Source: Parabacteroides sp. (GTDB lineage: Bacteria > Bacteroidota > Bacteroidia > Bacteroidales > Tannerellaceae). From it: 61,982 nucleotides of DNA. The translations under genes and the position numbers were made by a program. This document shows, piece after piece, positions 8,502 through 43,657 of the stretch (the stretch's first letter is position 1; every line of letters begins with the position of its first letter). The DNA is taken from positions 1-61,982 of the forward strand of contig JALFJR010000092.1 in NCBI GenBank assembly GCA_022775005.1, in the 5' to 3' direction. The notes below the pieces were generated by a model. It was not told where the DNA came from and did no database searches. It saw nothing but the letters and a program-made list of their open reading frames with translations.

Positions 8502-8623
8502 CGTTGCCCATCGTTTCAAAAAACATTGCCGATGGTTTTGAAAAACGTTGCCCGTGTTTTTTGAAAACATTGCCCGTCGTTTTTTCAGGCGTTGCCCATC
8601 GTTTTTGAAAATTACGGGCAATG
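8502..8623 (+). repeat. 22-bp tandem array, five copies plus inverted half copy (copy A)
   Basis: Direct units start at 8502, 8524, 8546, 8568 and 8590, each exactly 22 bp, based on CGTTGCCCATCG followed by T-rich then A-rich bases. The array ends with an inverted partial unit (TTACGGGCAATG, 8612-8623) that can pair perfectly over 10 bp with CATTGCCCGT in unit 4. The same architecture recurs at 43536-43657. It begins 8 bp after the thioredoxin stop codon. Confidence 0.93.
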
Positions 8624-8654
8624 AAAATTAGACGATCCAAAAGGGCGTATATAA

Positions 8655-8702
8655 AACAAATAATCCGCTGGCATACACTGCTGGCGGATTATTTATTTGT
8701 TA
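8655..8702. terminator. Bidirectional hairpin terminator
   Basis: An 11-bp perfect stem AAATAATCCGC (8658-8668) and GCGGATTATTT (8684-8694) with a 15-nt loop and A/T-rich flanks on both sides. It lies downstream of the fucosidase-thioredoxin operon, about 100 bp from the stop of the convergent esterase-GH30 gene. The rest of 8703-8807 shows nothing notable. Confidence 0.85.
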
Positions 8703-8807
8703 CCCTCCCGATTCTCGCGAACAAGGAGAAGTGGTGTAATCTGACTTAATCTAATACCATGAAAAACACTATGTACCTATATAACACAAGTCTGTTCCAA
8801 AATGTTT

Positions 8808-11012
8808 TCATTTTTTCCATTTAAATGAAACGACCGCATGAGCCGGCACCTTATAGGCGAAGGGTTGCTTTCCGTCGTTCACCTCAATCTGCCGCTCCTG
8901 ATCACTGTCGTTGAGCAAGACCAACGCATGGCTGCCATCCGTATTCTCGAAGGCAGCATAGGTCACACCGGCCTGTTTCGATTCGGAGGAGGCGATGCGC
9001 ACGGCTCCAGGTTTCACCACAGCGGAGAGATGACCAATAATATAATAATGCGAGTTACGAGTGATGGTCTTGTAGTCTGACCGCTCAATATCCACCGCTC
9101 CGTAGCAGGTCTGGCAACCGCCTTTTCGATTGGGACCCCGATCGTTATCGAGCATCAAGTTCCAAACGATCACCGCCTTACAGCCGTTGTTCACCGTACC
9201 CAAGGCCACCTCACGCATATCCTCCATCAAACGCTTAGACAGGTTACGCCCATCGTTCCACATACCGATGGAGGTCTCCGTGAAAATCAGCTCCTTCTGC
9301 GGGAAGCGGGCACCCACCGTCTTCAGCTCAGCCCGATCACCTCCGTAGTTATGATAAGCGGCACCGGTCAAGAAAGAGGCGGCATTGGGATCCTCGTAAA
9401 GCTTCATCGGATAGCCCTGTTGATCCAGCATATCGTCGTAGTTATAATTGTGGTCGAAAGCGTAGATCTTCGTCTGCAATCCGGCCGCCTTCAACTGCGG
9501 ACCTAACGCATCCCGTACGAAAGCCTGCTGCTCCTCCCAACCCATAAAGAGCGAAGCGGAGTTGCCTCGGTTCAACGGCTCATTCTGTGGCGTGATTGCC
9601 TCAATGGGCACGCCCGCTGCCTCCATCACCTGGATCCACTTCACGAAGTAGGTGGCATAATCCTGATAATAGGCGGGGTTGAGCTGGCCACTCGTCCACG
9701 ACTCAAACGGCTGCAAATCTTGCAGGTTGTTCACCTTCATCCAACGGGGACAGGTCCAGGGCGAGCCTAAGATTTTCAATTTGGGATTGATGGCCAACAC
9801 CTCCTTCAAGACCGGAATCACATAGTAGATCTCCTCGCTTTGCAGAGCGAAATGCTCGATGCCCTTCTCGTCGCAACAGGTGTATTCACTCAACGAGAAG
9901 TCGGAGCAGCCGATCGAGATACGGATGTAGCTATAGCCCATTCCCTCCCGTTCAGAGAAGGTCTCCGTCAAGAAACGTTTCCGATCCTCGGGAGCCATAC
10001 GCAGCAGGTTGTAGCAGGTGGAGCCGGTCAAAGCCGCTCCGAAACCATCCATCGTTTGGAATCGCTTCGTCGGGTCAAGCGTAATGGTCAATGGCTTCTC
10101 CGCATTCGTCTTGCCAAAAGGTATGTACTCCTTAGCGAAGTCTCGTCGGCGATCGGTTGTCGTCACGAAAGCAGTCACCGCTTGCGAGCGGTTCATCTGA
10201 TAGAAATTGTCCGGGCAGATACGACGAATGTGATCCAACAGAATCTTGTGCGCCGGATTAGCCATCGAGCCATGGTCGTAGCCATCCAGTTCATAAAGGT
10301 AAGTGGCTTTATGGCCAGCTACCTGCATCATACGCCACAGATAGGCGGTCTCCTCATAACGACCTAACAGCTCCTTCTCCCGATCACCGGAGATAATCAC
10401 CAAAGGTGGTGCATCCGGGCGCACGTAATAAAGTGGTGCGAACTCATCGATACTGGGTTGTGTCACCTTCATGCCCTTAGCCTCTCGATAGGCGAAATGG
10501 CTGATGGCATGACCGCTATAGGGCACCAAAGCCGCAATGCTATCCGGATCTATCTGGTATTTCGCCAACCACTTTTTATCCAAGCCGATCATGTTGGTCA
10601 GATAGCCGCCTGCGGAATGGCCAGAGACAAAAATCTTGTGGCGATCACCGCCGTAACGCTCAATCTCACGGAACGTCCAAGCCACCGCCGCAGCCGCATC
10701 GTCGATACAGTCGCTCAACGAAGCCTTCGGTAGCAGGCGATAGTTCACCGCTACCACCGCAATACCTTTGTTCTTCAACTCCTCCGGCACGAACTTGTTA
10801 CCCGAAGTCAATCCTCCCCCATGAAACCAAACCACCGTGGGGAAGCCCGTCGCCTCCTCCGGGTAATAGAGATCCAATCGGCAACGCTCCTTGGCATACG
10901 CATCAGCCGATGTCGAGTAAGGCAGGTTGTCCACCTGCTTGTAGGTCAGCTCTTGTGCCTTCAGCCAAGGGGCCAGCAAGAGCGACACCAAAATCAATAG
11001 AAACTGCTTCAT
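8808..11012 (-). CDS. Secreted fusion of an alpha/beta-hydrolase esterase and a GH30 glycosidase
   Basis: A 734-residue protein with a signal peptide (about 1-19). Residues 25-270 are a BD-FAE/carboxylesterase-like alpha/beta hydrolase: oxyanion loop HGGG (64-67), nucleophile elbow GHSAG with Ser133, likely acid Asp210 (SGDRE) and His247 (YDHG). Residues about 300-734 are GH30: MDGFGAALTG (321-330), acid/base Glu478 in TPQNEP and nucleophile Glu579 in FTETS, followed by a C-terminal beta domain. GH30 enzymes cut beta-glucosides, beta-1,6-glucan or glucosylceramide among others. The esterase would remove acyl groups from the same substrate, which is inference. It lies 139 bp downstream of the GH20 gene on the same strand. 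Confidence 0.88.
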   Translation of the reverse strand: MKQFLLILVSLLLAPWLKAQELTYKQVDNLPYSTSADAYAKERCRLDLYYPEEATGFPTVVWFHGGGLTSGNKFVPEELKNKGIAVVAVNYRLLPKASLSDCIDDAAAAVAWTFREIERYGGDRHKIFVSGHSAGGYLTNMIGLDKKWLAKYQIDPDSIAALVPYSGHAISHFAYREAKGMKVTQPSIDEFAPLYYVRPDAPPLVIISGDREKELLGRYEETAYLWRMMQVAGHKATYLYELDGYDHGSMANPAHKILLDHIRRICPDNFYQMNRSQAVTAFVTTTDRRRDFAKEYIPFGKTNAEKPLTITLDPTKRFQTMDGFGAALTGSTCYNLLRMAPEDRKRFLTETFSEREGMGYSYIRISIGCSDFSLSEYTCCDEKGIEHFALQSEEIYYVIPVLKEVLAINPKLKILGSPWTCPRWMKVNNLQDLQPFESWTSGQLNPAYYQDYATYFVKWIQVMEAAGVPIEAITPQNEPLNRGNSASLFMGWEEQQAFVRDALGPQLKAAGLQTKIYAFDHNYNYDDMLDQQGYPMKLYEDPNAASFLTGAAYHNYGGDRAELKTVGARFPQKELIFTETSIGMWNDGRNLSKRLMEDMREVALGTVNNGCKAVIVWNLMLDNDRGPNRKGGCQTCYGAVDIERSDYKTITRNSHYYIIGHLSAVVKPGAVRIASSESKQAGVTYAAFENTDGSHALVLLNDSDQERQIEVNDGKQPFAYKVPAHAVVSFKWKK

Positions 11013-11151
11013 AACACCCTATTTTTGAATTTTGAATTTTGAGTTATGAATTATCTCCATAATTAAGAATTATAAATTATGAATTAAGGATTATGCCCTA
11101 TTTAACTCATAATTCATAACTTATAATTTTTAATTCATAATTCATAATTCC
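11013..11151. repeat. AT-rich gap with repeated AATTCATAATTC-like words
   Basis: The gap is built of many variants of GAATTATGAATTA and its complement. A perfect 13-bp inverted repeat, AGTTATGAATTAT (11042-11054) and ATAATTCATAACT (11109-11121), could fold between the GH20 and esterase-GH30 genes. Similar simple words are common in Bacteroidota intergenic DNA. It could reduce read-through between the two genes. Confidence 0.7.
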
Positions 11152-12873
11152 TCAAAATACTAACGATGATTTAAAGTAATTCCATCCTGCTTTCTCCAAG
11201 AGCGGAGCTTGCCCAGCAAGACGCTGACGATACTCCTCCCAGTTGGTCTTTTCCACCTGGCTCCATCCCTTCTCAGCCACACCGGCCAAGCGAGGCATCA
11301 AGAGGAACTGCAGATCGCTGAAGTTGTTCACCGTCTCACACCAGATAGCTGCCTCGATGCCCGCCACCTTCTGTGTCGGCTCCTCGACCGTCGGGTTAAA
11401 GGTCATCGGATCCCAATCATACATCTCGGCAACAGTCTGTTTGTCGTAGGCCATCATGCCCAGTCGGGCCTGCTCCGCTGCCTGCGTGCTGTCAGCACTC
11501 TGCTCCGCATAAGGCGTGTCCATATAGACATAGCGGCTCGGCGAGAGAATCACCTGCGCCCCCTTACCGATACCCAGCTCGGGATCCTTCGAAGCCTCCT
11601 TCATGAAGTCGGCATAGAGCTTCATCAACTTGCGGTAAGACTCCGGCTTGTCTTTCATCTTCTCACCAGAGTTGATCGCATCCGTATTGCTCTGTTTCAG
11701 GAAAATCCAATGTTGGAAGAGATCGCCCTCGCCAATGTCGGCACGAGCCGTCTCCTGCCAACCAATCATTCGCTTGCCAGTGGCCTTTACCAGCTCACGA
11801 ATCGTGTTGATATAGCGCACGAACTTATCGTGCGGCAAGCCTACCGCCTCGTCACCACCAATATGCAGATAAGCACCGGGAGCCAAGGCTGCCATCTCTT
11901 TGACCACCGCCTCCGTCAAGGCCATCGCCTGCGGATCATCCACGTCGAGGGCGTTCAGCGCCTGTCCAGAGAAATTGGCATCAATTTTCAGCTTCACCGC
12001 ATTAGTCAATTCCGGATAGGCCGCAAAGACCGCCTTCGTGTGACCTGGCAAATCCACCTCTGGGATAATCGTTACCTGACGTTCCGCCGCATAGCGCACC
12101 AACTCTTTGAATTGCTCCTGTGTGTAGTAGCCACCTGGCTTACCCTCGTTGGGAATCTGTCCGCCCACCTCGGCCAACTTCGGATAGGCCTTGATCTCGA
12201 TGCGCCATCCCTGATTGTCGGAGAGGTGCATGTGCAACACGTTCATCTTATAGAGCGAGATCAGGTCGATCACCTGCTTCACCTCCTCCACCGTGAAGAA
12301 ACAGCGAGAGACATCCAGTGAGAGACCGCGCCAAGCGAAGCGAGGCGCATCCTTCACCTCTAAGATCGGCAGATAGAGCTTGCCGTTCTCCGCCGGCGTA
12401 GCGTTTTGCGCCACAATCTGCGTCAAGGTAGCTATGCCTCGGTAGAGTCCTTCGATCGCCGGAGCCTTGATGTAAATATTCTCCCGCTCGATCGAAAGCG
12501 AGTAGCGCTCATCCATCGGATCCCCACCCTTCGGGCTATTACCATAGGTAGCGGGAAGGTCGGCAAACTCTTCCGGCTTCAGCAGCTCCATGAAGATGAT
12601 GCAATTCGATTCCTTGCAAGAGGCATACGCCAACTTCATGCCACTGACTCGCTCGATCTCTTCCGAAAGCCGAGCCGCCGCACCTCGCAACGCCTCGTCG
12701 TTATAACCAATCTCCGTGCGAGGACCGATCGGGAAAAGCCCCTCCCCTCTCACCAACTCCACGGGAGCCGGAATCACGTTTACTTGCCGCTCACCCACAT
12801 CGGGATCGGCACAACCTACCATCATACAGAGGGCACACGCTACTGCCGCCCAACCAAACAGTCTTTTTCTCAT
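11152..12873 (-). CDS. Beta-N-acetylhexosaminidase lipoprotein, GH20
   Basis: A 573-residue protein from the ATG at 12873; the in-frame extension to 12891 would need TTG and would disrupt the signal. A lipoprotein signal ends in MVGC (Cys21). A GH20b-type domain (about 30-160) precedes the GH20 barrel, with FAWRGLSLDVSR, HMHLSDNQGWR and the catalytic pair Asp341-Glu342 in HIGGDE. It removes terminal beta-linked GlcNAc or GalNAc from host glycans by substrate-assisted catalysis, probably in the periplasm or at the surface. The barrel carries an insertion near residues 380-440. It heads a likely operon with the esterase-GH30 fusion. Confidence 0.92.
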   Translation of the reverse strand: MRKRLFGWAAVACALCMMVGCADPDVGERQVNVIPAPVELVRGEGLFPIGPRTEIGYNDEALRGAAARLSEEIERVSGMKLAYASCKESNCIIFMELLKPEEFADLPATYGNSPKGGDPMDERYSLSIERENIYIKAPAIEGLYRGIATLTQIVAQNATPAENGKLYLPILEVKDAPRFAWRGLSLDVSRCFFTVEEVKQVIDLISLYKMNVLHMHLSDNQGWRIEIKAYPKLAEVGGQIPNEGKPGGYYTQEQFKELVRYAAERQVTIIPEVDLPGHTKAVFAAYPELTNAVKLKIDANFSGQALNALDVDDPQAMALTEAVVKEMAALAPGAYLHIGGDEAVGLPHDKFVRYINTIRELVKATGKRMIGWQETARADIGEGDLFQHWIFLKQSNTDAINSGEKMKDKPESYRKLMKLYADFMKEASKDPELGIGKGAQVILSPSRYVYMDTPYAEQSADSTQAAEQARLGMMAYDKQTVAEMYDWDPMTFNPTVEEPTQKVAGIEAAIWCETVNNFSDLQFLLMPRLAGVAEKGWSQVEKTNWEEYRQRLAGQAPLLEKAGWNYFKSSLVF

Positions 12874-12923
12874 GCTCGATGTATTAATCAATGATTATTT
12901 GCTCTGATTTTATTAACTACCGA

Positions 12924-12931
12924 CAAATATA
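12924..12931 (-). promoter_or_regulatory. -7 box of the GH20 gene
   Basis: TATATTTG on the minus strand, 50 bp before the ATG at 12873. I do not see a good -33 box. Confidence 0.55.
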
Positions 12932-13116
12932 TTTATTGTTTCCCGATAAATAGACTGCAATGTCTCTTTTTCCCAATAATTATCCCATTCATCTTTCTGC
13001 TTGGCTGGAGTGAAACGGAAAAGCACCGTCTTAACAGAATTGTAACATCTATTTCATGTGGTAGAAATAGAAAATCCCGATCTTTGCGGTCGTAACATAA
13101 CAATGGAATCAGTGAT

Positions 13117-13812
13117 ATGGCAACAGCAAAGACAATACGGATATTAGTGGTTGACGACGAGGAAGATCTGTGCGAAATCTTGCGTTTCAATTTAGAGACC
13201 GAGGGTTATACGGTAGATACGGCATACAGTGCAGAGGAAGCGCTCCAGAGGGATTTGACGCTCTATGACCTATTTCTACTCGATGTCATGATGGGAGAAA
13301 TCTCCGGTTTCAAGATGGCTCACCTGTTGCAGCGAGATCCCAAGACAGCCTCTATCCCCATCATTTTTTTGACAGCGAAAGATACAGAGAATGATTTGCT
13401 GACCGGTTTCAATATAGGTGCGGACGATTATATCTCCAAGCCCTTCTCCATTCGCCAGGTGATTGCCCGCATCAAGGCTGTCCTTCGGCGTACACAGGCT
13501 ACAATAAAGGAACCATCCGATGATCAACTGACATTTGAGACACTCACATTGGACATTCGACGCATCAAGGCAACCGTTGACGGGGAAGAAATTCCCCTCA
13601 CTAAAAAGGAATTCGAGATCTTGCGTCTGCTGTTAGCGGATCGAGGGAATGTCTTTTCTCGGGAAGAGATCCTCTCCCGCGTATGGAAAGAGGAGGTCTA
13701 TGTGCTGGATCGCACTATTGACGTTAATATCACTCGCTTACGCAAAAAGATCGGTCGCTATGGCAAGAATATTGTCACCCGATTGGGATTCGGTTATTGT
13801 TTCGAGTGCTAA
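13117..13812 (+). CDS. OmpR/PhoB-family response regulator
   Basis: A 231-residue two-domain regulator. The receiver domain (residues 7-122) has the acidic pair in VDDEED, phospho-acceptor Asp56 (LLDVMM), Thr87 region (LTAK) and Lys108 (SKPF). The winged-helix DNA-binding domain (about 137-229) has the DRTIDVNITRLRKKIG recognition helix and GFGYCFE wing. The cognate kinase gene starts 20 bp downstream, so the two form an operon. Target genes are not apparent. It most resembles PhoB or RprY-type regulators of Bacteroidales; orthology is uncertain. Confidence 0.92.
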   Translation: MATAKTIRILVVDDEEDLCEILRFNLETEGYTVDTAYSAEEALQRDLTLYDLFLLDVMMGEISGFKMAHLLQRDPKTASIPIIFLTAKDTENDLLTGFNIGADDYISKPFSIRQVIARIKAVLRRTQATIKEPSDDQLTFETLTLDIRRIKATVDGEEIPLTKKEFEILRLLLADRGNVFSREEILSRVWKEEVYVLDRTIDVNITRLRKKIGRYGKNIVTRLGFGYCFEC

Positions 13813-13832
13813 TTATCCGATGAATAAAAAAC

Positions 13833-15602
13833 ATGAATAGAGTAAGCATAAATAACGGGAGCCGTATCCATTTCAGCCAACGGTTGTTTTGGACAATCTT
13901 CGCTATGTTCTTAGTGTTTATCTCCTGTTTCCTGTTGTTTCAATACCAACGGGAAAAGGAATTTGCGGAAGAGAAGCTGAACAACGTGTTGAGCAATTAT
14001 AACTATCAGCTATTCCGCAAATGCTACAAGAGCGAGGATATAGCGACCACTGTCAAAACTTTCATGCAAGACATTCCACAGCGAGACCTACGTGTGACCA
14101 TTATCGACCCTTCTGGCCGTGTGCTTTTCGACAACAGCGGCACGGATGAATTAGATAACCACAATAATCGAAGCGAAGTACGAAAAGCACGCTTGCAGAA
14201 TGAGGGGTTTGCCATTCGCTCCTCCGCCTCCACAAGGAAACGTTATTTCTATTCCGCCTCCAATATCGGTGGTTACATCTACCGATCTGCCTTAGAGTAT
14301 GATCCATACGTAAAAGGCGTGCTCAAGATTAACATGGATTTTATCTATTTCATGGGATTTATGACCTTGATTTTCTTCTTCGTGCTTGCCCGCTTTACCA
14401 CAAGCATCGGCAAAACCATCTCCAAGCTACGGGATTTTGCTCGAACAGCGGAGAAAGAGCAGATGCCCGACTTGGATTATATATTCCCCAATGATGAATT
14501 GGGAGACATCTCCAAAAATATCGTCACGCTCTATCACCAACAACAACGAGCCAAGTATGCGCTTACCATGGAACGGGAAAAACTGGTCAAGCATTTTCAA
14601 TATTCCAAGGAGGGATTTGCCATGTTCGATGGAGATGGACGGGAGATCCTCTCCAACATCCTCTTTATCCAGTTCATGAACGTAATTTCTGATACACAAT
14701 TACATTATGTGGAAGAGGCACTTGAAGTGCCTGAGTTGGAGCCTATCCGCACCTTCTTGGTCAAGAATAGCCACGATCCAAACCGCAAGAAAAAGGTGTT
14801 GCGCAACGTCTTGACCATTGATAAGAACGGCAAGATTTTCTTAATCGAATGCATCCTCTTCTTGGATCACTCCTATGAGCTTTCCATCAACGATATCAGT
14901 CGCCAAGAAGAGGAGAGTCGCATGAAACGGCAACTAACACAAAATGTCTCTCACGAGCTGAAAACCCCGGTCAGCAGTATCCAGGGCTATTTGGAAACCA
15001 TCCTGTCAAATCCAGACCTGGATCCAGAGCGATGCCGCTTCTTCTTGGAACGTTGCTATTCGCAAAGCACGAGGCTCACCGGTTTGCTGCGCGACATCTC
15101 TGTCCTCAATCGCTTAGACGAAGCCTCTGCCCTGTTTGATTTGACAGAGGTGAATATCCCGAAACTGATTGCAGAAATCGAGAAGGAATGCTCACAAGAG
15201 ATGGAGATTAGACACATCACCACAGAAGTGATCCTACCGGGCAATCCGACGGTCATCGGAAACAACTCCCTACTCTACTCCATCTTCCGCAATCTCTACG
15301 ACAATGCGATTGCCTATGCGGGTGAAGGTGTTAAGATCACGGTCAATTGCTATAAGGAGGATCCCAAGTATTACTATTTCAGCTTCTCAGACAATGGTGT
15401 AGGCATTGCTACCGAGCACATCAACCGTATCTTCGAGCGTTTTTACCGGGTGGATAAGGGCCGAAGCCGCAAGATGGGTGGCACCGGGTTAGGACTCTCT
15501 ATCGTGAAAAACAGCGTCCATTTTCACAAGGGACAGATCTCTGCCAAGAGCAGCCCTGGCCGTGGCGTGACCTTTTTCTTCACCTTGAAGAAAAAGATAT
15601 AA
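13833..15602 (+). CDS. Membrane sensor histidine kinase
   Basis: A 589-residue kinase. Transmembrane helices at about 18-37 and 170-188 enclose a periplasmic sensor domain of about 130 residues. A HAMP-like segment (about 190-235), a PAS-like domain (about 255-355) and the H-box NVSHELKTPVSS with His374 follow. The ATPase domain has an N box (NLYDNAIAYA), G1 (DNGVGI), an F box (FERFYR) and G2 (GGTGLGLSIV). All catalytic motifs are intact, unlike the kinase-like protein at 41990. It pairs with the upstream response regulator. The architecture is PhoR-like. The signal is unknown. Confidence 0.92.
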   Translation: MNRVSINNGSRIHFSQRLFWTIFAMFLVFISCFLLFQYQREKEFAEEKLNNVLSNYNYQLFRKCYKSEDIATTVKTFMQDIPQRDLRVTIIDPSGRVLFDNSGTDELDNHNNRSEVRKARLQNEGFAIRSSASTRKRYFYSASNIGGYIYRSALEYDPYVKGVLKINMDFIYFMGFMTLIFFFVLARFTTSIGKTISKLRDFARTAEKEQMPDLDYIFPNDELGDISKNIVTLYHQQQRAKYALTMEREKLVKHFQYSKEGFAMFDGDGREILSNILFIQFMNVISDTQLHYVEEALEVPELEPIRTFLVKNSHDPNRKKKVLRNVLTIDKNGKIFLIECILFLDHSYELSINDISRQEEESRMKRQLTQNVSHELKTPVSSIQGYLETILSNPDLDPERCRFFLERCYSQSTRLTGLLRDISVLNRLDEASALFDLTEVNIPKLIAEIEKECSQEMEIRHITTEVILPGNPTVIGNNSLLYSIFRNLYDNAIAYAGEGVKITVNCYKEDPKYYYFSFSDNGVGIATEHINRIFERFYRVDKGRSRKMGGTGLGLSIVKNSVHFHKGQISAKSSPGRGVTFFFTLKKKI

Positions 15603-15610
15603 ACAAAAGA

Positions 15611-15690
15611 ACCCCACGGTATAACGCTGTACACCGTGGGGTATTTCTTTATGAACCGTGGGATTGATCACCCTTGTACCGTGGGGTCTA
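15611..15690. terminator. Terminator hairpin merged with a 22/23-bp repeat
   Basis: ACCCCACGGT (15611-15620) pairs perfectly with ACCGTGGGGT (15633-15642) and a T-rich stretch follows. ACCGTGGG recurs at 15655 and 15678, spacings of 22 and 23 bp. The array separates the convergent kinase and dapA genes and can form several alternative hairpins. Confidence 0.8.
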
Positions 15691-15699
15691 TTCCTACGA

Positions 15700-16593
15700 T
15701 TAGCACTTGATGCTTAACTGACGCAGTACCTCACGAATCTTCTCGTAGGTGACGATGCGTGTAGGAACCAATGGCAGACGTAACTTATTCTCAATGAAAC
15801 CCATCATGCTCAACATACTCTTCGCTCCTGCCGGATTACCATCTACGAAAAGCAGGCTGAACAGCTCCGTGAAACTATGATGGATGGTGCGTGCGCTATC
15901 ATAATCACCTGCCAAAGCCAACCGAACCATACGGCTGAACTCACGCGGGAAAGCATTACCAATCACCGAAATCACGCCGATCGCTCCTAACGTCACCAAG
16001 GGGAAGGTAATGCCGTCATCACCTGAGATGACATTGAAACGGGCCGGCTTGTTCTTGATGATATCATCCATCTGCGTGATATTGCCAGAAGCCTCCTTCA
16101 CCGCTACGACATTCTCAAACTCGCGAGCGATACGCAAAGTGGTCTCAGCCGTCATATTTACACCTGTACGACCGGGTACGTTGTAAAGGATAATCGGCAG
16201 CTTCGTAGCATTAGCGATAGCCTTGTAATGTTGATAGATACCCTCTTGCGAAGGTTTATTGTAGTAAGGCACGACTGAAAGGATTGCGTCAATGCCAGTG
16301 AAATCACCATTTTTCAGCTGCTCTACGACATTGCGTGTACAGTTGCCGCCCACACCGAGCACGATGGGAATGCGACCACGCACGTGATTCACTACCAAAT
16401 CTATGATGTTTCGCTTCTCCTCCTCTGTCAGTGTAGGGGTTTCCGCTGTGGTTCCTAAAACGACCAAATAATCTGTTCCATTCTGCACTTGATAATCCAC
16501 CAATCGGCCAAGTGCTTCATAATCTACACTTTCATCTTCTTTGAATGGGGTAATCAACGCTACACCCATTCCCTTTAAATTTATATCTGCCAT
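15700..16593 (-). CDS. dapA: 4-hydroxy-tetrahydrodipicolinate synthase
   Basis: A 297-residue (beta/alpha)8 enzyme of normal family length. It condenses pyruvate with aspartate semialdehyde in lysine and diaminopimelate synthesis, in the cytoplasm. Schiff-base Lys166 is in VVAVKEASG, Tyr137 in ILYNVPGRT, and the TTAE substrate loop is at 48-51. The TTAE motif and full motif set favour DapA over N-acetylneuraminate lyase; the lyase-like paralogue of this window is at 50060. It lies 57 bp downstream of the DUF6913 gene with its own -7 box, so it may be read both alone and with the cluster upstream. Confidence 0.92.
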   Translation of the reverse strand: MADINLKGMGVALITPFKEDESVDYEALGRLVDYQVQNGTDYLVVLGTTAETPTLTEEEKRNIIDLVVNHVRGRIPIVLGVGGNCTRNVVEQLKNGDFTGIDAILSVVPYYNKPSQEGIYQHYKAIANATKLPIILYNVPGRTGVNMTAETTLRIAREFENVVAVKEASGNITQMDDIIKNKPARFNVISGDDGITFPLVTLGAIGVISVIGNAFPREFSRMVRLALAGDYDSARTIHHSFTELFSLLFVDGNPAGAKSMLSMMGFIENKLRLPLVPTRIVTYEKIREVLRQLSIKC

Positions 16594-16627
16594 GGGAAAA
16601 TCTCTTCCGTTTTGTTATTTAGCACCG

Positions 16628-16635
16628 CAAAAATA
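16628..16635 (-). promoter_or_regulatory. -7 box of dapA
   Basis: TATTTTTG on the minus strand, 35 bp before the dapA ATG. The -33 region, which would fall inside the end of the upstream gene, is weak. Confidence 0.5.
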
Positions 16636-16650
16636 GCGAAATATTGTCAT

Positions 16651-19172
<2,522 letters not shown>

Positions 19173-21247: not shown

Positions 21248-21258
21248 GTCGTTTACGT

Positions 21259-30570: not shown

Positions 30571-30600
30571 CCCAATAAAGTTTAAAAAGAAAAAGTAGTT

Positions 30601-31026: not shown

Positions 31027-31046
31027 TCTTTGGCAACGCAACAAAA

Positions 31047-31083
31047 AAACGGGTGTGCTCATTTCGAGGGCACACCCATTTTT
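31047..31083. terminator. Bidirectional terminator between mscL and nhaA
   Basis: GGGTGTGC (31051-31058) and GCACACCC (31070-31077) form a perfect 8-bp stem, with an A-run on the left and a T-run on the right. It can end both convergent transcripts. Confidence 0.88.
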
Positions 31084-31106
31084 ATACCTTAAAATTGCGA
31101 ATTACC

Positions 31107-32462: not shown

Positions 32463-32497
32463 ACTTTAAGTTTTTCAAATGATATTGATTTTTGTCG

Positions 32498-32505
32498 CAA
32501 ATATA
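32498..32505 (-). promoter_or_regulatory. -7 box of nhaA
   Basis: TATATTTG on the minus strand, 35 bp before the ATG. The -33 box is not clear. Confidence 0.5.
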
Positions 32506-32527
32506 CACATTTCATACCAATGAAACA

Positions 32528-33136: not shown

Positions 33137-33138
33137 GT

Positions 33139-33360
33139 TTAATCTGGTATTTTTGTTTTAGCGATCTCTTCCCGATAGGCTCGGAAATCTTTCATTATCT
33201 CCTCGATCTCCTCCACGAAGTAAGGATCCTTGACCTGTTGACGCACCGCCTCGTAATAGGCTTCCACGGCCGCCAACGCACAACGGTCTTGTCCGCGTAG
33301 CACGAAATAGGGTTCCTCCTTCTCGACGCACTGCTTGATCATTTGTATGGGATTCTTCAT
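33139..33360 (-). CDS. Small conserved-looking hypothetical protein
   Basis: A 73-residue soluble, highly charged helical protein: MKNPIQMIKQCVEKEEPYF, then VLRGQDRCALAAVEAYYEA and a helix ending EEIAKTKIPD. I do not recognise the family by name. Tight coupling supports it being real: its ATG overlaps the uvrA stop by 4 bp (33357-33360) and the IMPACT gene starts 2 bp after its own stop. Confidence 0.75.
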   Translation of the reverse strand: MKNPIQMIKQCVEKEEPYFVLRGQDRCALAAVEAYYEAVRQQVKDPYFVEEIEEIMKDFRAYREEIAKTKIPD

Positions 33361-36218: not shown

Positions 36219-36275
36219 TTTACTGCTTTTTGTGCGACCTATCTTCGCATTTTTTGAACAAAGGTACAGAAAAAC

Positions 36276-37253
36276 TTAATTGGAGGCAACCACCCACGCT
36301 GGATTATGCACCACCGTGTTGGGTGTTTGATAATACAACTCACTCGTTTTAGGCAGGCTCAACTTGAAAGTACGTCCGCCTGTCAACAGTTTTCGATCAC
36401 GCAACCATGGGTTGAAACGCTTCAGGTCCGCATAAGTCAATCCTTTCTCTTTCGCAAAGGCCGCTAAATTCTGAATGTCCTGCTTCACCTCGATCTCATC
36501 CGTCGCAATCGGCTTATACAGATCTCGGGCCCTCATGACAAAACCATACTTTGATGGATGCTCAAAGATCTGCTTGATCGCCATGATGCGATAGACATAA
36601 CGCGTGGTCTCCTCTACGAGCCATAAATCGAACGAACTCTCTCCCTCCTGCTTAACTAACTCTCCCGAAATACGTCCCATACCTCCGTTGTAGCTGGCAG
36701 CCACGGTTGCCCAATCGCCATACTTCTCGTAAGCCTGTTTCAAATAACGGCAAGCCGCTTCTGTCGCTTTCGCCACATGACACCGTTCATCCACTGTCGG
36801 CGTAATCACCAAGCCGAAATCTCTTGCTGTTCCTTCCAACAATTGCCACATACCGACAGCTTTCGCATGGGAGGTGACTCGTGGATCCAAATTGCTCTCG
36901 ATCACCGCCAAATACTTGAAATCATCGGGAATGCCATTCGCTTTCAGGATCGGTTCAATCACCGGGAAATAGCGATTCGCCCGCTTGATCAACAACATTG
37001 TCGTCGAATGGAAATAGGTGAAGCTACTCAACTCACGGTCGAACGCCTCACGCCGATCATAGCGAGTAATATCTACCAACTGCCCACAAAAGGGTACTGA
37101 CTCCGGAATCTCCGGCGAGACCGTCAATGAAGCAACTACAGGATCACGCTCTGCCACCCGCTTCACATCGTCTGATCCCATGGAAATACAGGCAGTCAAA
37201 CAAGCTGCCCCTCCACATAAAAAACTGATTAAATTGCTTTTAGAAACTTTCAT
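36276..37253 (-). CDS. Lytic transglycosylase lipoprotein (MltD-like)
   Basis: A 325-residue protein from ATG 37253; a GTG at 37259 is possible but less likely. A lipoprotein signal ends LTAC with Cys22. The SLT domain has catalytic Glu in AVIESNLDPRVTS, then AVGMWQLLEGTARDFGL and VAASYNGGMGRISG. The C-terminus (about 265-325: AFAKEKGLTYADLKRFNPWL) looks like a single LysM-type peptidoglycan-binding module. It cleaves murein with 1,6-anhydro ends. The start lies inside the end of the T9SS protein gene (14-bp overlap), so it is the last gene of that operon. Confidence 0.88.
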   Translation of the reverse strand: MKVSKSNLISFLCGGAACLTACISMGSDDVKRVAERDPVVASLTVSPEIPESVPFCGQLVDITRYDRREAFDRELSSFTYFHSTTMLLIKRANRYFPVIEPILKANGIPDDFKYLAVIESNLDPRVTSHAKAVGMWQLLEGTARDFGLVITPTVDERCHVAKATEAACRYLKQAYEKYGDWATVAASYNGGMGRISGELVKQEGESSFDLWLVEETTRYVYRIMAIKQIFEHPSKYGFVMRARDLYKPIATDEIEVKQDIQNLAAFAKEKGLTYADLKRFNPWLRDRKLLTGGRTFKLSLPKTSELYYQTPNTVVHNPAWVVASN

Positions 37254-38610
37254 TACCACTGTTTACTTCTTGTTCTTCTTGAATGGTTTTAGGACGCAAG
37301 ATATTTATATCGCCTTTCTCTTTATACTTGATACCATCAGAACCCTCCGCCTCTATCACATAGAAATAGACACCCGGCACCACATATTTACCTCCTTTCT
37401 TACCATCCCAACCTTGTGAGGGATCAGTCCACTCGTAGAGCTTCAACCCCCATCGGTTGAAGATCGTTGCCTTGAAGCGAATCAACGACTTATAAGCCAC
37501 CTTGAACTCGTCGTTCACACCGGGAGTCGTACCCGGAGAAAAAGCGTTGGGAATCTTTAGATAAGACTCCGAGATGTCGATCTGTACCTCGTCCTCTACC
37601 GTACAGGTGGTCTGTTGATCACTGACCGTTAGCTTCACCACGAACGAACCAGCCTGACTAAAGGTATAATCAATTGTCTCGCCGGTGAAACGTAACAATA
37701 CATTCTCCTCTTCCCCCTGCGGATAAATCACCCAATTGAAAAGAGCCGCTGTCGGTTGGTTGGCTACTGCTGTGAACTCCACCTCTGCAGGTGCACAATA
37801 ACCCACTTTGGAAGTATTCATGTTCTCTGCAGCCTGCTCCACCAAGAATGTGTCGATATGGGCCTCTACAGCCGCCGCCTGGTAGTTGTCCACACACCAA
37901 GTGCCCTCTTTGCCGAAATGGCGAGCGAATGCATCGCCACGCACACAAATCTCCGTGTCGCACAAAGGAGCCGGGATGGCATGCTCAAACAGATTACCCT
38001 CAATGGTAGCCGTTTCTGTCTGCTCATTAAATCGTCTCTCCTCAGCATTATACACCATGGTTTGGTAGCTAATCTCATATTGTCGCTTCAACTCCCGGCG
38101 TGTACCCGTATTGGGCCAATAATAATAGATCGGTGTGATCGTGCCTGCGCCTGTCAACAGAATGCCACTACAAGGATCGCTGGTCTCTGAGACTCCCAGA
38201 CCGGAGATGCTCAAGCCATAACGGCTGTAATCCACGATCCAAACATAGTTAGAAACCGCTCCCTCTTCCACGAAATAACCATACTCCGGTTCGATATTGG
38301 CTATGGTTGAGGTTTGTCCTGATTGTGTACAGGGAATTGCCTCCGCCTCCAATCGCTTAGTCTTGTAGCGGTACCATTGATGCGTAGCCGTTGAGGAAGA
38401 GGTGTAACTGATAGAAAGGTCTTTCGTGCCATTGACGACATACACTGTAATGCGTTCAGCCTTATCAGCTGCGCTCTGCTCAACAGCCAAAGGAGTTCCC
38501 TCACCACCTCGCACGACGTATTGCGCCGCCAACAAACCGACACTGCCTGACAGCAAGACAATCATCACTAACCGTCTAAACAGGCTATAACCTAATTCCT
38601 CACTACTCAT
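37240..38610 (-). CDS. T9SS-secreted protein with PKD-like and type B sorting domains
   Basis: A 456-residue exported protein. A membrane-targeting signal lies at about 12-30. The middle contains Ig/PKD-like beta repeats (FNWVIYPQGEEENVLLRF ... GSFVVKLTVSD, about 290-340). The C-terminus is the gliding-motility-associated type B sorting domain: IPNAFSPGTTPGVNDEFKV, IFNRWGLKLYEW, GWDG, VPGVYFYVIEA and KGDINILR (about 355-440). An extra 17-residue acidic tail (PKTIQEEQEV...) follows. Such proteins cross the outer membrane by the type IX system and are often glycosylated or anchored. It lies 10 bp after manC in the GDP-fucose operon. Confidence 0.85.
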   Translation of the reverse strand: MSSEELGYSLFRRLVMIVLLSGSVGLLAAQYVVRGGEGTPLAVEQSAADKAERITVYVVNGTKDLSISYTSSSTATHQWYRYKTKRLEAEAIPCTQSGQTSTIANIEPEYGYFVEEGAVSNYVWIVDYSRYGLSISGLGVSETSDPCSGILLTGAGTITPIYYYWPNTGTRRELKRQYEISYQTMVYNAEERRFNEQTETATIEGNLFEHAIPAPLCDTEICVRGDAFARHFGKEGTWCVDNYQAAAVEAHIDTFLVEQAAENMNTSKVGYCAPAEVEFTAVANQPTAALFNWVIYPQGEEENVLLRFTGETIDYTFSQAGSFVVKLTVSDQQTTCTVEDEVQIDISESYLKIPNAFSPGTTPGVNDEFKVAYKSLIRFKATIFNRWGLKLYEWTDPSQGWDGKKGGKYVVPGVYFYVIEAEGSDGIKYKEKGDINILRPKTIQEEQEVNSGNESF

Positions 38611-38620
38611 CTCTCATTCC

Positions 38621-39688
38621 TTATTTTGAAAATGTCTCTATCACCTGTTTCAAATGATTCTCATCACCTAACGGGCAAATCATCAAGACATCCTCGGTGT
38701 CCGCCACCAAGAAGCCAGACAATCCATCAATCACCACCTTTTTGTTGGGGTTCGTCTCCTTCACCAAGTTACCATCCGAGGCCATCAAGCGGATCTGCTC
38801 CGTACCGGATGCGGCATTGAGTTGCTCATCTTTAGTCAGCAATCCATAAAGTGCCCCCCACGAACCGACATCACTCCACGCTAAGTCATTGGTGCAGCAT
38901 ACATAAACCTTGTCCGAACGCTCCATCACACCATAGTCAATCGAAATAGAAGGACTGGCCATGAATGCCGCATTTACGGCATCCTGCTCTTGTGGGGTGT
39001 CATACACATCACCTACTCCCTCAAAGAGCGAAGTCACCTCAGGCAAATAGGTACGCAAAGCCTCTACGATGGCTTGTGCCGACCAGACAAACATACCGGA
39101 ATTCCAATAATAATTACCCTCGTTCAGATAGCTCATTGCCGTGCGGAGATCCGGTTTCTCCTTGAAACGCTGTACGGGGGTAAAACAGGCTCCTTCTTGG
39201 CTCTGCGTCTGGATATAGCCGTAGCCGGTAGCAGGATAAGTCGGCGTTATGCCTACCGTCAGCAATGCAGGATGCTGACGAGCAAAGGTCAGACTCTCAG
39301 CCATGATTACCTCAAATGCCTGCTCATTACCAATGTATTGATCAGAAGGAGTCACCACAGCTACTGCCTCCGGATCTCGCTGGAAGAGCTTGCACATCGC
39401 ATAAGCAATACAAGGAGCGGTATTTCGCCGACAAGGCTCTGTCAGTACTTGCTCCGGACGGAGCATCGGCAACTGCTCCAACACCAAGTCCTTATATCCC
39501 TCACCCGTCATTACGAGGAAGTTTTCCGTTGGGATCAGCCGAGAGAACCGCTCGTAGGTCAGCTGAATGAAGGTCTTACCCACGCCCAAAGCATCCACAA
39601 ACTGCTTCGGTAGCTCCACACGGCTCAACGGCCAAAAGCGGGAACCGATACCTCCCGCCATGATCACACAGTAGTTATTTTGATTCAT
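38621..39688 (-). CDS. manC: Mannose-1-phosphate guanylyltransferase
   Basis: A 355-residue nucleotidyltransferase making GDP-mannose. The nucleotide loop is MAGGIGSRFWPLSR, followed by LPKQF, EPCRRNTAPC, TPSDQYI, FKEKP and NSGMFVWSA. It lacks the C-terminal isomerase domain of bifunctional enzymes (about 470 residues). It feeds Gmd and Fcl encoded just upstream in the same operon, with a 12-bp gap after fcl. Confidence 0.93.
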   Translation of the reverse strand: MNQNNYCVIMAGGIGSRFWPLSRVELPKQFVDALGVGKTFIQLTYERFSRLIPTENFLVMTGEGYKDLVLEQLPMLRPEQVLTEPCRRNTAPCIAYAMCKLFQRDPEAVAVVTPSDQYIGNEQAFEVIMAESLTFARQHPALLTVGITPTYPATGYGYIQTQSQEGACFTPVQRFKEKPDLRTAMSYLNEGNYYWNSGMFVWSAQAIVEALRTYLPEVTSLFEGVGDVYDTPQEQDAVNAAFMASPSISIDYGVMERSDKVYVCCTNDLAWSDVGSWGALYGLLTKDEQLNAASGTEQIRLMASDGNLVKETNPNKKVVIDGLSGFLVADTEDVLMICPLGDENHLKQVIETFSK

Positions 39689-39700
39689 TTTGTTTTATGC

Positions 39701-40774
39701 TTAATGTTGTAAATACCATTGATACAGACGTGCTACACCCTCCTCAATTTCAATCTGATGGTGCCAGCCCAATGCGTGCAGTTTAGACACATCGGTCAGT
39801 TTACGCATCGTGCCGTCAGGCTTAGAGGCATCAAACCGAATCGTTCCCTCATAGCCCACTGCCCGCTTAATCAAAGCAGCCAATTCCGCAATGGTCAACT
39901 CTTTTCCTGTACCTATATTTATATGGCAATTCCGAATATCTCGTTCACCGGCAGCGTAAGTGTCCTTGAAATCTACCCGCTCCAAAATATAGACACTGGC
40001 ATCAGCCATCTCCTCGCTCCACAAGAACTCACGGAGCGGCTTACCCGTACCCCAAAGCTCCACTCGGTCGGCGAAGATACCATATTTACCCAATATGCGC
40101 AAAATTTCCTCCTCAGCCGCTGAGCCATTCACACCCTCCACCGGCCGACGATTCAGGTCTTTGCGGACAGCCTCCCAGTTTCCATTCAAGAGGCAGTTGG
40201 CCAAATAAATCTTACGCAGCATAGCGGGCAACACATGGCTATTCTCTAAATGAAAGTTATCATTCGGACCATAGAGATTAGTAGGCATCACTGCAATGTA
40301 ATTGGTGCCATATTGCAAGTTGAAGCTCTCACACAGTTTCAACCCAGCAATCTTGGCAATCGCATACGGCTCATTCGTATATTCCAAGGGAGAGGTTAGC
40401 AACGCCTCCTCTTTCATCGGTTGCTCCGCATCCCTGGGATAAATACAGGTACTTCCCAAGAAGAGCAGTTTCTTCACTCCGTGACGAAAACTCTCACCAA
40501 TCACATTTTGCTGAATCTGCAAGTTTTGGTAAATGAAATCAGCTCGATAACGGCTATTCGCCATGATACCACCCACATGGGCAGCGGCTAAGATCACATA
40601 CTCCGGACGCTCTTCATCGAAGAATGTACGAACTGCTACGCCGTCCAGCAGGTCCAACTCCGCATGAGTACGCCCCACCAAGTTGGTATAGCCTTTCGCT
40701 TGCAGGTTCTTCCAAATAGCGGAACCCACCAATCCTCGGTGGCCAGCCACATAGATTTTCGCTGTCTTATCCAT
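39701..40774 (-). CDS. fcl: GDP-L-fucose synthase
   Basis: A 357-residue short-chain dehydrogenase/reductase-type epimerase-reductase. The NADP loop is VAGHRGLVGSA, with LAAAHVGGI, LGSTCIYP and the catalytic Tyr-x3-Lys in EPYAIAKIAG. It converts GDP-4-keto-6-deoxymannose to GDP-L-fucose. It is about 35-40 residues longer than E. coli Fcl because of an insert around residues 195-235, common in Bacteroidota. Its ATG lies 3 bp after the gmd stop. Confidence 0.94.
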   Translation of the reverse strand: MDKTAKIYVAGHRGLVGSAIWKNLQAKGYTNLVGRTHAELDLLDGVAVRTFFDEERPEYVILAAAHVGGIMANSRYRADFIYQNLQIQQNVIGESFRHGVKKLLFLGSTCIYPRDAEQPMKEEALLTSPLEYTNEPYAIAKIAGLKLCESFNLQYGTNYIAVMPTNLYGPNDNFHLENSHVLPAMLRKIYLANCLLNGNWEAVRKDLNRRPVEGVNGSAAEEEILRILGKYGIFADRVELWGTGKPLREFLWSEEMADASVYILERVDFKDTYAAGERDIRNCHINIGTGKELTIAELAALIKRAVGYEGTIRFDASKPDGTMRKLTDVSKLHALGWHHQIEIEEGVARLYQWYLQH

Positions 40775-40777
40775 CGA

Positions 40778-41860
40778 CTAATCCTCCATGTGCGATTTCA
40801 GATAGAGCTTCTTAACAAAGTGCATATCATGTTGCACCATGATGCGTACCAACTCCGGGAAGGAGGTCTTACGCGGGTTCCATCCCAATAGCGTTTTCGC
40901 CTTGGTCGGGTCGCCCAAGAGCTGCTCCACCTCTGCCGGACGGAAATATTTCGGATCCACCTCTACCAAGACACGTCCAGTAGCGATGTCAATACCCTTC
41001 TCGGCGACACCCTCACCTTCCCAACGCAACGTGATACCCACCTCTTGGAAAGCCAACGTACAAAACTCGCGCACCGTATGATATTCACCCGTTGCGATCA
41101 CGAAATCCTCTGGCGTGGGATGCTGCAAAATCATCCACATACACTCCACGTAATCCTTGGCATAACCCCAGTCGCGCAAAGCATTGAGATTACCTAAGTA
41201 TAATTTATCTTGATAACCTTGTGCGATACGTGCTGCCGCAAGAGTAATCTTACGAGTCACAAAGGTTTCGCCTCGACGCTCGCTCTCGTGATTAAACAAA
41301 ATGCCGTTCACAGCAAACATACCGTAGCTCTCACGGTAATTCTTAGTGATCCAAAAGCCATACTGCTTCGCCACACCATAAGGAGAACGTGGATAGAAAG
41401 GAGTTGTCTCTCGCTGCGGCACCTCTTGCACCAATCCAAACAGCTCGGAAGTAGAGGCTTGATAAATCTTCGTCCGCTGCTCATAACCCAACAGACGCAC
41501 CGCTTCCAACAGACGCAACGTGCCGACCGCATCCGCTTCCGCTGTATATTCCGGCACATCAAAACTGACCTTCACATGGCTTTGGGCGGCCAAATTATAG
41601 ATCTCGTCCGGCTTCGTCTCCCGAATGATGCGCACCAGCGAGCTGGAATCGGTCATGTCGCCCCAATGCAGGTTGACTAATCGCTTATTCTTCATGTCGC
41701 GTACCCATTCATCCAAATAAAGATGCTCGATACGCCCTGTATTGAAAGAGGAAGAACGACGCATAATGCCATGCACCTCATACCCTTTCTCTATTAAGAA
41801 CTCGGCTAAAAACGAGCCATCCTGTCCCGTAATGCCTGTGATCAATGCTACTTTTGCCAT
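40778..41860 (-). CDS. gmd: GDP-mannose 4,6-dehydratase
   Basis: A 360-residue enzyme with NADP-binding [43 protein letters not shown] and catalytic YGVAKQYG region (Tyr-x3-Lys). It makes the 4-keto intermediate for GDP-L-fucose. It is the first gene of the operon gmd, fcl, manC, T9SS protein, lytic transglycosylase. Fucose from this route would decorate capsule or O-glycoproteins; the downstream secreted protein hints at the envelope. Confidence 0.96.
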
Positions 41861-41896
41861 ATTTTGGAATTAGCTATTTTTTTGATTAAGAACGGG

Positions 41897-41904
41897 CAAA
41901 GTTA
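41897..41904 (-). promoter_or_regulatory. -7 box of the GDP-fucose operon
   Basis: TAACTTTG on the minus strand, 37 bp before gmd. The divergent kinase-like gene has a weaker TACTTTTA box at 41948-41955 with GTTG upstream, so the two promoters share about 100 bp. Confidence 0.6.
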
Positions 41905-41989
41905 CAATTTATTCTCTAAAAAGTTGCACAACTGACAAAGAAGGCTTACTTTTACGTTTTTAAGACAGAAACATATATAGTAAAATACA

Positions 41990-43525
41990 ATGAAACTAAA
42001 CTTCTTATTCTTATGGATGCTCTTAGGGTTGATAGAGGGTCAATTGTGGGGACAAACCGCACCAGAGCTCTTGCAACAGGCACAAAACAGCCTGGAGAAC
42101 AAAAACTACGGACAAGCGAAAACGCTCTTTCTGAACGCATACCAAGCCTTTGCTGACGCGGGAGATGTCAAACAGGCCATCGAGGCCGGAACAGAGGTGA
42201 CGACACTCTATTATCGAGAGAATCTATACAACGACGCTTTCGAATTTTGTCGCCAAATGACACAGTACCTAATCACCGAGGAGCAGAAACAACAACGGCA
42301 ATTCTACACACAACGTTTTCAAATCACCCGTGAGCGGTTACGTATGTACATCAAATTGAGGAATCCCCAGCAAGCCGAAGGACAGCTTAACGCTTTGGAA
42401 GCGATCAAAAACCAAACCGGAGACGGTAGCCTTACTTATGATTGGCTCACTGCGCAAGCCGAATTTTATTACACGTTCGGACAAAAGCGAGAGGGCGATG
42501 CAGCCTTCCAGAAGCTCATTGAGGCCGCAAAAAGCCAGAAAAACTATGCTGCTGTCAATGAGCGTTACGAAAACTTGATTGATGTGGCCCGCTTTGGTAA
42601 TAACACGGCCTTGATGGAACAGGCTTGCAAGGGATTGATGAATTGGAATGACTCCGTGAAGCAACTGACTGCCAAGGATGAGTTAGGCGCTTTACAGCAG
42701 AAATACGATGAGAGCATTCAGTTGATCGAAGAAAAAGAGAGTAGCCTCTCCACCCGGCAATACATCATTTTCGCCCTATTAGTGGTCGTGGCTGGATTGG
42801 CCATTGTGCTTGTTTTGGGTGGATTGATGTTAGCTCGCCTTACGTTAGGTAATCGTAAGCTCAAACAAATCATTGAGACCTCAAAGGCACACAGCGAACA
42901 GCAAGCAGCTTTCATCCAGCATATCGCGGAACAGATGGAACCCACCTTAGAGAAAGTCACCGTTCTGTCTCGCCAGGCTCAGCCAGAGGTGCGTGAGCCC
43001 ATCGAAGGACGTGTAGAAGCATTACGCACATTCGCAGCACATATTCAAGAGCTCTCTGCTCTGGAAAGCTCGTTGACAACTCCTTTTGAATCCAAGCCGT
43101 TGAATGTATCGAAACTGGGTAAGAAGCTGGTCGAAAACTTCAAAGACCATCTAAAACCGGGTGTAGAGTTGTTGACCGACCTTCCTTCCATTGAGATCAA
43201 AAGCAATGCGGAGCAACTTGAAAATCTTCTCTCCTATCTGTTGTATGGGGCAGCCCAGCACACAGAAGAGGGCCATATCCGCTTGGAGTTTAAGCGCAAA
43301 GGAGCACATGTCTGCCAATTCTTGATCACAGACACCGGTTGCGGTATTCCCGAAGAGTTGAAAGAGAGCATCTTTACTCCTTTCGCTTCAACGCACGACC
43401 TGATGAAAGGAGACGGATTAGGCTTGCCAATCTGCGCATTGATTGCTACTAAGCTAAATGGAGAGCTCTCGCTCGACACGGCCTATAAGAAGGGCTGTCG
43501 CTTCGTCTTGGTCTTACATATTTAA
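41990..43525 (+). CDS. TPR and histidine-kinase-like membrane protein lacking catalytic residues
   Basis: A 511-residue protein. A signal peptide (1-21) precedes TPR-like helical repeats (about 25-225) in the periplasm, one membrane helix (about 257-283), a dimerisation-like helix pair and an HATPase domain (about 380-511). In the H-box region FIQHIAEQMEPTL the catalytic His position is Glu314. The N box (ENLLSYLLYGAAQHT) lacks the Mg-binding Asn. G1 (DTGCGI) and G2 (GDGLGLPI) remain. It may bind ATP without autophosphorylating, acting as a scaffold or sensor. No response regulator is adjacent. Confidence 0.78.
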   Translation: MKLNFLFLWMLLGLIEGQLWGQTAPELLQQAQNSLENKNYGQAKTLFLNAYQAFADAGDVKQAIEAGTEVTTLYYRENLYNDAFEFCRQMTQYLITEEQKQQRQFYTQRFQITRERLRMYIKLRNPQQAEGQLNALEAIKNQTGDGSLTYDWLTAQAEFYYTFGQKREGDAAFQKLIEAAKSQKNYAAVNERYENLIDVARFGNNTALMEQACKGLMNWNDSVKQLTAKDELGALQQKYDESIQLIEEKESSLSTRQYIIFALLVVVAGLAIVLVLGGLMLARLTLGNRKLKQIIETSKAHSEQQAAFIQHIAEQMEPTLEKVTVLSRQAQPEVREPIEGRVEALRTFAAHIQELSALESSLTTPFESKPLNVSKLGKKLVENFKDHLKPGVELLTDLPSIEIKSNAEQLENLLSYLLYGAAQHTEEGHIRLEFKRKGAHVCQFLITDTGCGIPEELKESIFTPFASTHDLMKGDGLGLPICALIATKLNGELSLDTAYKKGCRFVLVLHI

Positions 43526-43535
43526 GCCAATTTTT

Positions 43536-43657
43536 CGTTGTCCATGGTTTCGCAAAACGTTGCCCATCATTTTGGAAAACGTTGCCCGTGTTTTTTTCAA
43601 ACATTGCCCATAGTTTTTTATTTCTTTGCCCATCATTTTGGAAAACTACAGGCAATG
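43536..43657 (+). repeat. 22-bp tandem array, five copies plus inverted half copy (copy B)
   Basis: Direct units start at 43536, 43558, 43580, 43602 and 43624, each 22 bp. An inverted partial unit (CTACAGGCAATG, 43646-43657) caps the array. Sequence family, copy number, cap and distance to the preceding stop (10 bp here, 8 bp there) all match the array at 8502-8623. Confidence 0.93.

Follow-up and report, generated by a model that had tools for sequence, protein, structure and literature searches.

We found two copies of a 122-bp intergenic element in a 61,982-bp stretch of a Parabacteroides genome (contig JALFJR010000092.1; this whole stretch is called the window), and it is well supported that about forty similarly built elements are present per genome in a few related gut bacteria. 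The carriers are this Parabacteroides genome (G000), P. distasonis An897 (G028), and a related Parabacteroides genome that is 84% complete (G034). The account that we favor, to which we give an even chance of being correct, describes a MITE-like, lineage-restricted element that now serves as a helically phased platform for a putative DNA-binding protein. Its MITE-like spread is probable; a protein platform is the likeliest function, putative and unproven. Dispersed repeats in bacteria are often palindromes or MITEs whose use is uncertain; in this element, the geometry is constant almost to the base pair, selection appears to act on the core, and boxes can face either way.

The element is composed of six 12-bp boxes (CRTTGCCCRTNN) and five 10-bp linkers (TTTTNNAAAA), i.e., 6 x 12 + 5 x 10 = 122 bp. 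The sixth box is inverted, and inversion in place also occurs at other boxes. Because an inverted box (NNAYGGGCAAYG) fills the identical 12 positions, the 22-bp grid is unbroken at inversions. Between successive strong boxes, counted around the arrays without a grid (99 arrays, 556 strong boxes), 452 of 457 intervals were multiples of 22 bp (431 at 22 bp and 21 at 44 or 66 bp); the five exceptions were 6, 24, 32, 45, and 73 bp. By orientation, the 22-bp intervals were 299 >>, 90 ><, 23 <<, and 19 <>. The core was kept equally well in inverted and direct boxes (53 and 200, respectively, in G000). AAAAA precedes box 1 and TTTTT follows box 6, which gives short terminal inverted repeats (AAAAACRTTGCCCRT...AYGGGCAAYGTTTTT). 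Among 76 arrays retained after a crude redundancy filter, common sequence fades about 6 bp past the outer boxes, save for a faint decayed box upstream.

Six or seven slots were present in 86 of the 99 arrays with at least four slots. Four, five, six, seven, and eight slots were counted in 1, 2, 20, 15, and 2 of the 40 G000 arrays; five, six, seven, and eight slots in 4, 23, 12, and 1 of the 40 G028 arrays; and four, six, seven, and nine slots in 2, 6, 10, and 1 of the 19 G034 arrays. Some seventh slots are weak boxes with three mismatches. We discounted three more G000 rows, each with three slots, as chance matches. The commonest layout was >>>>>< (13, 14, and 4 arrays in G000, G028, and G034, respectively); others include >>>>>><, >>>>><<, >>><<<, <>>>><, and >>><><. 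Free variation in unit number and lack of the inverted cap, which the sequence-only reading had taken as the mark of chance slippage, were not what we saw in G000: 20 of 40 arrays had six slots, 15 had seven, and 33 ended in an inverted box according to the grid caller, with the proviso that the search patterns and the model were derived from intact arrays and so favor them. In 457,595 bases from the window and the loci (parts of which were counted twice, the loci being mostly picked around arrays), 308 perfect 10-mer boxes had a neighboring box and 6 were solitary; base composition predicts 3.4 solitary boxes. Solitary boxes are near the chance level.

Both window arrays, each 122 bp long and on the plus strand, were confirmed at the exact positions first read from the sequence (Table 1), and their reported starts shortly after stop codons also held, at 8 bp past the stop codon ending at 8493 for array 1 and 10 bp past that ending at 43525 for array 2. 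The five direct units described earlier were borne out, but the "inverted half unit" after them is really a whole sixth 12-bp box. Array 1 occupies the same place with the same layout, five direct boxes and the cap, in G028 (L080 and L151) and G034 (L079 and L225), and no array was found at this locus in seven relatives with a 64 to 73% identical thioredoxin (L081 to L087). An array also follows array 2's upstream gene in G028 (L150), but it has seven slots and different units. Three terminator-like sites were counted in 7900-9200, compared with 1.2 expected from shuffling.

Table 1. Positions of the two arrays in the window and of features next to them
Feature	Position	Strand	Basis
Array 1, six 12-bp boxes on a 22-bp grid, layout >>>>><	8502..8623	+	Sequence, grid caller
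Array 1 box 1, direct	8502..8513	+	Sequence, grid caller
Array 1 further direct boxes	8524-8535, 8546-8557, 8568-8579, 8590-8601	+	Sequence, grid caller
Array 1 box 6, inverted in place (the cap)	8612..8623	-	Sequence, grid caller
Array 2, layout >>>>>< as in array 1	43536..43657	+	Sequence, grid caller
Array 2 box 6, inverted in place	43646..43657	-	Sequence, grid caller
Thioredoxin gene, upstream of array 1	8005..8493	+	Pfam PF00085
GH30/esterase gene, convergent with the thioredoxin gene	8808..11012	-	Pfam PF02055, PF20434
Terminator-like hairpin between array 1 and the convergent GH30/esterase gene	8658..8694	+	Consensus match only
Gene with a histidine-kinase-type ATPase domain, upstream of array 2	41990..43525	+	Pfam PF02518
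BspA-type leucine-rich-repeat ORF, convergent, downstream of array 2	43751..44224	-	Pfam PF13306

A chance origin of the arrays is excluded because the two-unit pattern had 9 matches in the window, compared with a mean of 0.04 in 100 shuffles, and the genome-wide pattern had 83 + 62 matches in G000, compared with 0 + 0 for a reversed control pattern. Using a sequence model built from 22 arrays, with overlapping and opposite-strand matches merged by eye, we counted distinct places among the matches listed, with 40 for G000, 41 for G028, and at least 20 for G034, and examined 40 of 40, 40 of 41, and 19 of 20 loci, respectively. The suggestion from the first two arrays of a dispersed family with constrained structure was thus upheld by the genome-wide search, which yielded 40 G000 places with arrays on a 22-bp grid. 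One window protein is 91 to 92% identical to Parabacteroides loci L001 and L007. In a survey of 59 genomes (G000, 34 congeners, and 24 genomes from other families of the order), pattern counts were far above the control, besides G000, only in G028 (43 + 97) and G034 (40 + 35). Counts for the 32 other congeners were near the control, a few differing by some matches, with a weak signal in G029 (8 + 1 versus 0 + 0). A strict pattern matched only G000 across 393 Bacteroidales genomes, a sample without G028 and G034.

A phage or plasmid origin was considered and rejected: the strict pattern had no exact match in viral contigs, and a 151-base BLAST query with array 1 (low-complexity filter on) found nothing among 72,556 plasmid records and 50,697 phage records. 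The kinase had no match in viral contigs either. Judged from search listings, there was no literature account of this repeat in Parabacteroides, and the literal box words returned only an unrelated match. In G029, a fitted 22-bp pattern had 12 matches, compared with 0 for the control and 0 to 1 in seven noncarrier congeners. These loci (L253, L258, L259, L261, L269, and L273) mostly hold two units (TTSCCCNGNKTTTY..GRAA), some then followed by an inverted GGGG-type end. Tentatively, they may represent a sister family in a fourth species, the pattern having been fitted on some of the same matches.

Equal length and copy number, noted earlier as signs of a constrained structure, reflect mainly common descent of the whole element, plus the position-specific constraint visible in the footprint described below. 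At linker positions 17-18, same-slot identity between arrays was 0.407 for 29 nonredundant >>>>>< arrays, compared with 0.267 when slots were shuffled within arrays (0 of 1,000 shuffles reached 0.407); without long-form copies (27 arrays), the values were 0.401 and 0.264. At variable box positions, identity between units was 0.458 within arrays and 0.444 between arrays. Since slot-specific linkers are shared and units are hardly more alike within arrays, the arrays are copies of one six-slot element.

Compared with the 40 G028 loci, 19 of 40 G000 arrays share both flanks, 12 share one, and 9 share none; with the 19 arrays of the 84% complete G034, the counts are 7, 7, and 26, respectively. Some absences are truncations or replaced intergenic DNA. 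Among these nine arrays without a shared flank at the G028 loci, the sites of L058 and L072 are present in G028 with truncated arrays, and the G028 place of L064 was found, with a continuous match across the array. At the L031 site, G028 keeps both flanks and has no array, and the site is empty in G034 too. At L154, both G028 and G034 carry an array, and G000 does not. No target-site duplication was recognizable at L031 versus L182/L187 (one clean empty site) or at L154 versus L201, flanks having diverged there, so that it is descent that argues for insertion as a unit. Unit number sometimes changes by whole units (e.g., 22 bp at L058 versus G034).

Some arrays mark rearrangement sites among the three species. 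An array-to-array rearrangement is seen at G028 L156, where the left flank matches that of G000 L050 and the right flank that of G000 L063; G034 L226 similarly combines the L069 left flank with the L068 right flank, and several other arrays are located at synteny breaks. At L056:1477 versus L143, the orthologous linkers that connect a direct box with an inverted one seem to run in opposite directions: the sequence is AAATAAAAAA in G000, and the G028 10-mer at L143 fits the reverse complement of this sequence at 9 of 10 positions, possibly through a small loop inversion. Long-form copies, which share longer upstream DNA, number only five in G000 (L035, L055, L057, L061, and L070) and six in G028 (L138, L139, L161, and L171 to L173). 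In the 900 bp upstream that were compared, long-form copies belong to mosaic repeat islands that end on the right with the array and carry a near-perfect palindrome around TTAGGAAAAAATTTTTCCCTAA. A 16-mer that differs from TGTTCCACGTGGAACA, a ParB-site consensus, by one or two letters is present in seven of the 11 long-form copies. A gene for a PD-(D/E)XK (PDDEXK_2) nuclease-family transposase, at L057:1638-2531, lies beside a long-form array.

The footprint was evaluated for 23 orthologous pairs from 19 G000 arrays (26 pairs were found, and 3 were dropped at <75% identity). Only boxes with two or fewer mismatches in the G000 copy were used, a mild bias toward conservation. Changes were counted at 28 of 840 TTGCCC sites (3.3%) and at 118 of the 560 sites in the four variable box positions (21%), compared with 10.7% over 12,619 bp of array flanks and 29% at third codon positions between the window and G028. 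The pace of the core is thus about three times below that of the flanks and eight to nine times below that of third codon positions. A and G were exchanged in 52 of the 53 changes seen at the two R positions, compared with a 37-kb window-G028 alignment in which a quarter to over a third of purine-site changes were transversions, depending on context. Exchange restricted to A and G would be expected of sites where recognition through the major groove requires a purine. CpG hypermutability was tried as a source of these exchanges and rejected (G in CG changed to A at 9.9% and other G at 11.3%). Indels other than 22 bp numbered 3 in 3,383 bp of array and 46 in 12,619 bp of flank (P = 0.008, with all 46 flank gaps counted). 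A looser earlier footprint had used 35 pairs, of which 33 had no more than two gap columns; some of the 35 were probably nonorthologous. As judged from these sequence comparisons, the box core is under purifying selection, with the purine held and other positions drifting; gene conversion between arrays may contribute to the conservation of the core.

The favored account would begin with a short noncoding element that multiplied whole, by MITE-like copying, before the three closely related Parabacteroides species split, after which the elements would mostly have been inherited at fixed intergenic places. The boxes would be double-stranded recognition sites for one putative sequence-specific DNA-binding protein. 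As 22 bp is about two helical turns, copies of this protein at successive boxes could line up along the same face of the DNA with cooperative binding, and an array of about six sites would act as a platform. The inverted last box with AAAAA/TTTTT forms terminal inverted repeats that may once have served transposition. A role as double-stranded DNA is favored because boxes and arrays are free in orientation. Candidate roles of the platform are a boundary between transcription units, nucleoid structure, or transposase binding only. A DNA-binding platform thus fits best among the three readings offered at the outset, and no protein for it was found. Genes near arrays are mixed (thioredoxin, LrgB, Hsp20, pyridine nucleotide-disulfide oxidoreductase, AraC-type regulator, HU-like protein, and LpxA-like acyltransferase), and no shared regulon was evident in the 28 proteins scanned, i.e., 8 from the window, not all array adjacent, and 20 of 72 flanking ORFs.

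Helically phased rows of sites spaced about 22 bp apart are known from the 22-bp iterons of R6K and from ParR/omega-type centromeres with direct and inverted repeats, and some iteron and partition-site systems tolerate inverted sites. The Parabacteroides element differs in its roughly 40 copies per genome, and no replication or partition family was found among the 28 scanned proteins, not all of them direct neighbors; judged from a search listing, the iteron literature held no direct precedent. The ends of Tn7 and Mu carry several 22-bp transposase sites in a row at the element end. In contrast, neither cargo nor transposase was seen here, and both ends of the Parabacteroides element lie within 122 bp.

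A bolder form of the platform account, which we regard as rather doubtful, is that about forty preassembled six-site platforms, one per about 80 kb, would serve a polymer-forming DNA-binding protein that organizes the chromosome or insulates transcription units. Mobile spread would have been followed by host takeover, with the 22-bp pitch selected and boxes placed either way, and a diverged short form (two direct boxes and an inverted box) may exist in a fourth species. If the platform account is true, a gut Bacteroidales lineage has its own chromosome-wide binding system, and the element is a case of a mobile element turned into host architecture.

A decaying MITE family and nothing further, in which the boxes would be transposase-binding sites of a lost autonomous element and the copies inert and vertically inherited, is possible, with a clearly lower chance than the favored account. 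The element is short and noncoding, with terminal inverted repeats and many dispersed copies (40 arrays in G000), and this explanation is further supported by flanks that are unrelated past about 6 bp save for faint traces of further boxes, by whole-element descent, by truncated or lost copies in sister species, and by the five G000 long-form copies within larger repeat islands. However, inert DNA should show neither a core that changes about three times more slowly than flanks and eight to nine times more slowly than third codon positions nor rarer non-22-bp indels inside arrays. Also against this explanation, no target-site duplication was recognized at L031 or L154/L201, and a PF01797 search found no Y1 transposase. 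As for a parent transposase with the same ends, none of the model matches listed was an array split by a gene.

It is unlikely that the arrays act as a 3'-UTR RNA in which the inverted cap pairs with a unit to form a terminator or RNA stabilizer, as the sequence-only reading had offered for example. Both window arrays are placed just past stop codons, T-runs often follow the cap, and the plus strands fold better than shuffles (z = -3.7 and -4.4), the cap pairing with unit 4; the minus strands gave z = -2.3 and -3.1, and folding of this kind tends to result from an inverted box. Convergent placement was also frequent, at 15 of 39 arrays versus 5 of 43 adjacent gene pairs in the window. Yet according to a crude ORF finder, the remaining arrays lie between divergent genes (10 of 39) or co-oriented genes (13, of which 6 run along and 7 against them), with 1 undefined, and in-place inverted boxes are tolerated. 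Covariation between cap and units was unconvincing in 29 arrays: the lowest P values in 25 Watson-Crick tests were 0.015 (U2, one position) and 0.028 (U3, all four), and with G-U pairs allowed, the lowest of 10 tests was 0.111. Swapping caps shifted the mean plus-strand folding energy only from -36.75 to -36.56, although the real array folded lower than the cap-swapped mean in 19 of 29 cases; on the minus strand, the shift was from -37.00 to -36.98 (13 of 29 lower). Curated Rfam families had no match in the window at the gathering threshold.

The sequence-only reading had also named a REP-like element, which would have been moved by a RAYT (Y1) transposase; this is very improbable. Like REPs, the Parabacteroides elements are short, intergenic, and dispersed, with inverted copies possible. 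REPs, in the available part of their description (PMC3733652), are 20- to 40-bp palindromes with a GTAG or CGTC tag, often with a RAYT. In contrast, the units here are not palindromes and lack the GTAG/CGTC-tagged stem-loop layout of that description, and none of 8 genomes, among them the three carriers (one 84% complete), contained PF01797 in a search that was positive in 5 of 14 control genomes. Independent slippage-made tandem duplication at each site is scarcely credible and was rejected for the family as a whole: the occasional whole-unit change (L058 versus G034) would fit it, but slot-specific linkers are common across loci, and similarity within arrays is hardly above that between arrays. 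Nor are the arrays CRISPRs, as had been recognized from the start, since units are contiguous, linkers are conserved by slot, and there are no unique spacers.

The closest known kind of element, as far as the portion of its description available goes, is the BrickBuilt MITE of Porphyromonas gingivalis (PMC4596501), from the same order, Bacteroidales. It has imperfect tandem 23-nt units without spacers and 19 intergenic copies in ATCC 33277, no internal transposase is described there, and it was proposed to be a nonautonomous mobile element. Tandem units of 22 or 23 nt without spacers at intergenic places make the two the same general kind. Compared by description, the Parabacteroides element differs in its 22-bp pitch (431 of 457 intervals) and its inverted end box and in-place inverted boxes. 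Whereas BrickBuilt has 1 to 22.8 units, with a leader and tail of up to 285 and 318 nt and IS5-type terminal repeats (PMC4596501), 86 of 99 Parabacteroides arrays have six or seven slots and share little beyond about 6 bp, only the 5 G000 and 6 G028 long forms sharing more.

Other features of the window were also recorded. Divergence from G028 is patchy, with 97.7% identity over 367-5991 and 86.3% over 6603-43525, which suggests recombination. Another intergenic repeat, at 143-397, has six 43-bp units with the palindrome TTACTACACCRTGTAGTAA, and similar sequence was found upstream of array L042. The stretch immediately before the start of the GH30/esterase gene, at 11026-11150, contains two oppositely oriented runs of 7-bp repeats (TGAATTA, then TAATTCA).
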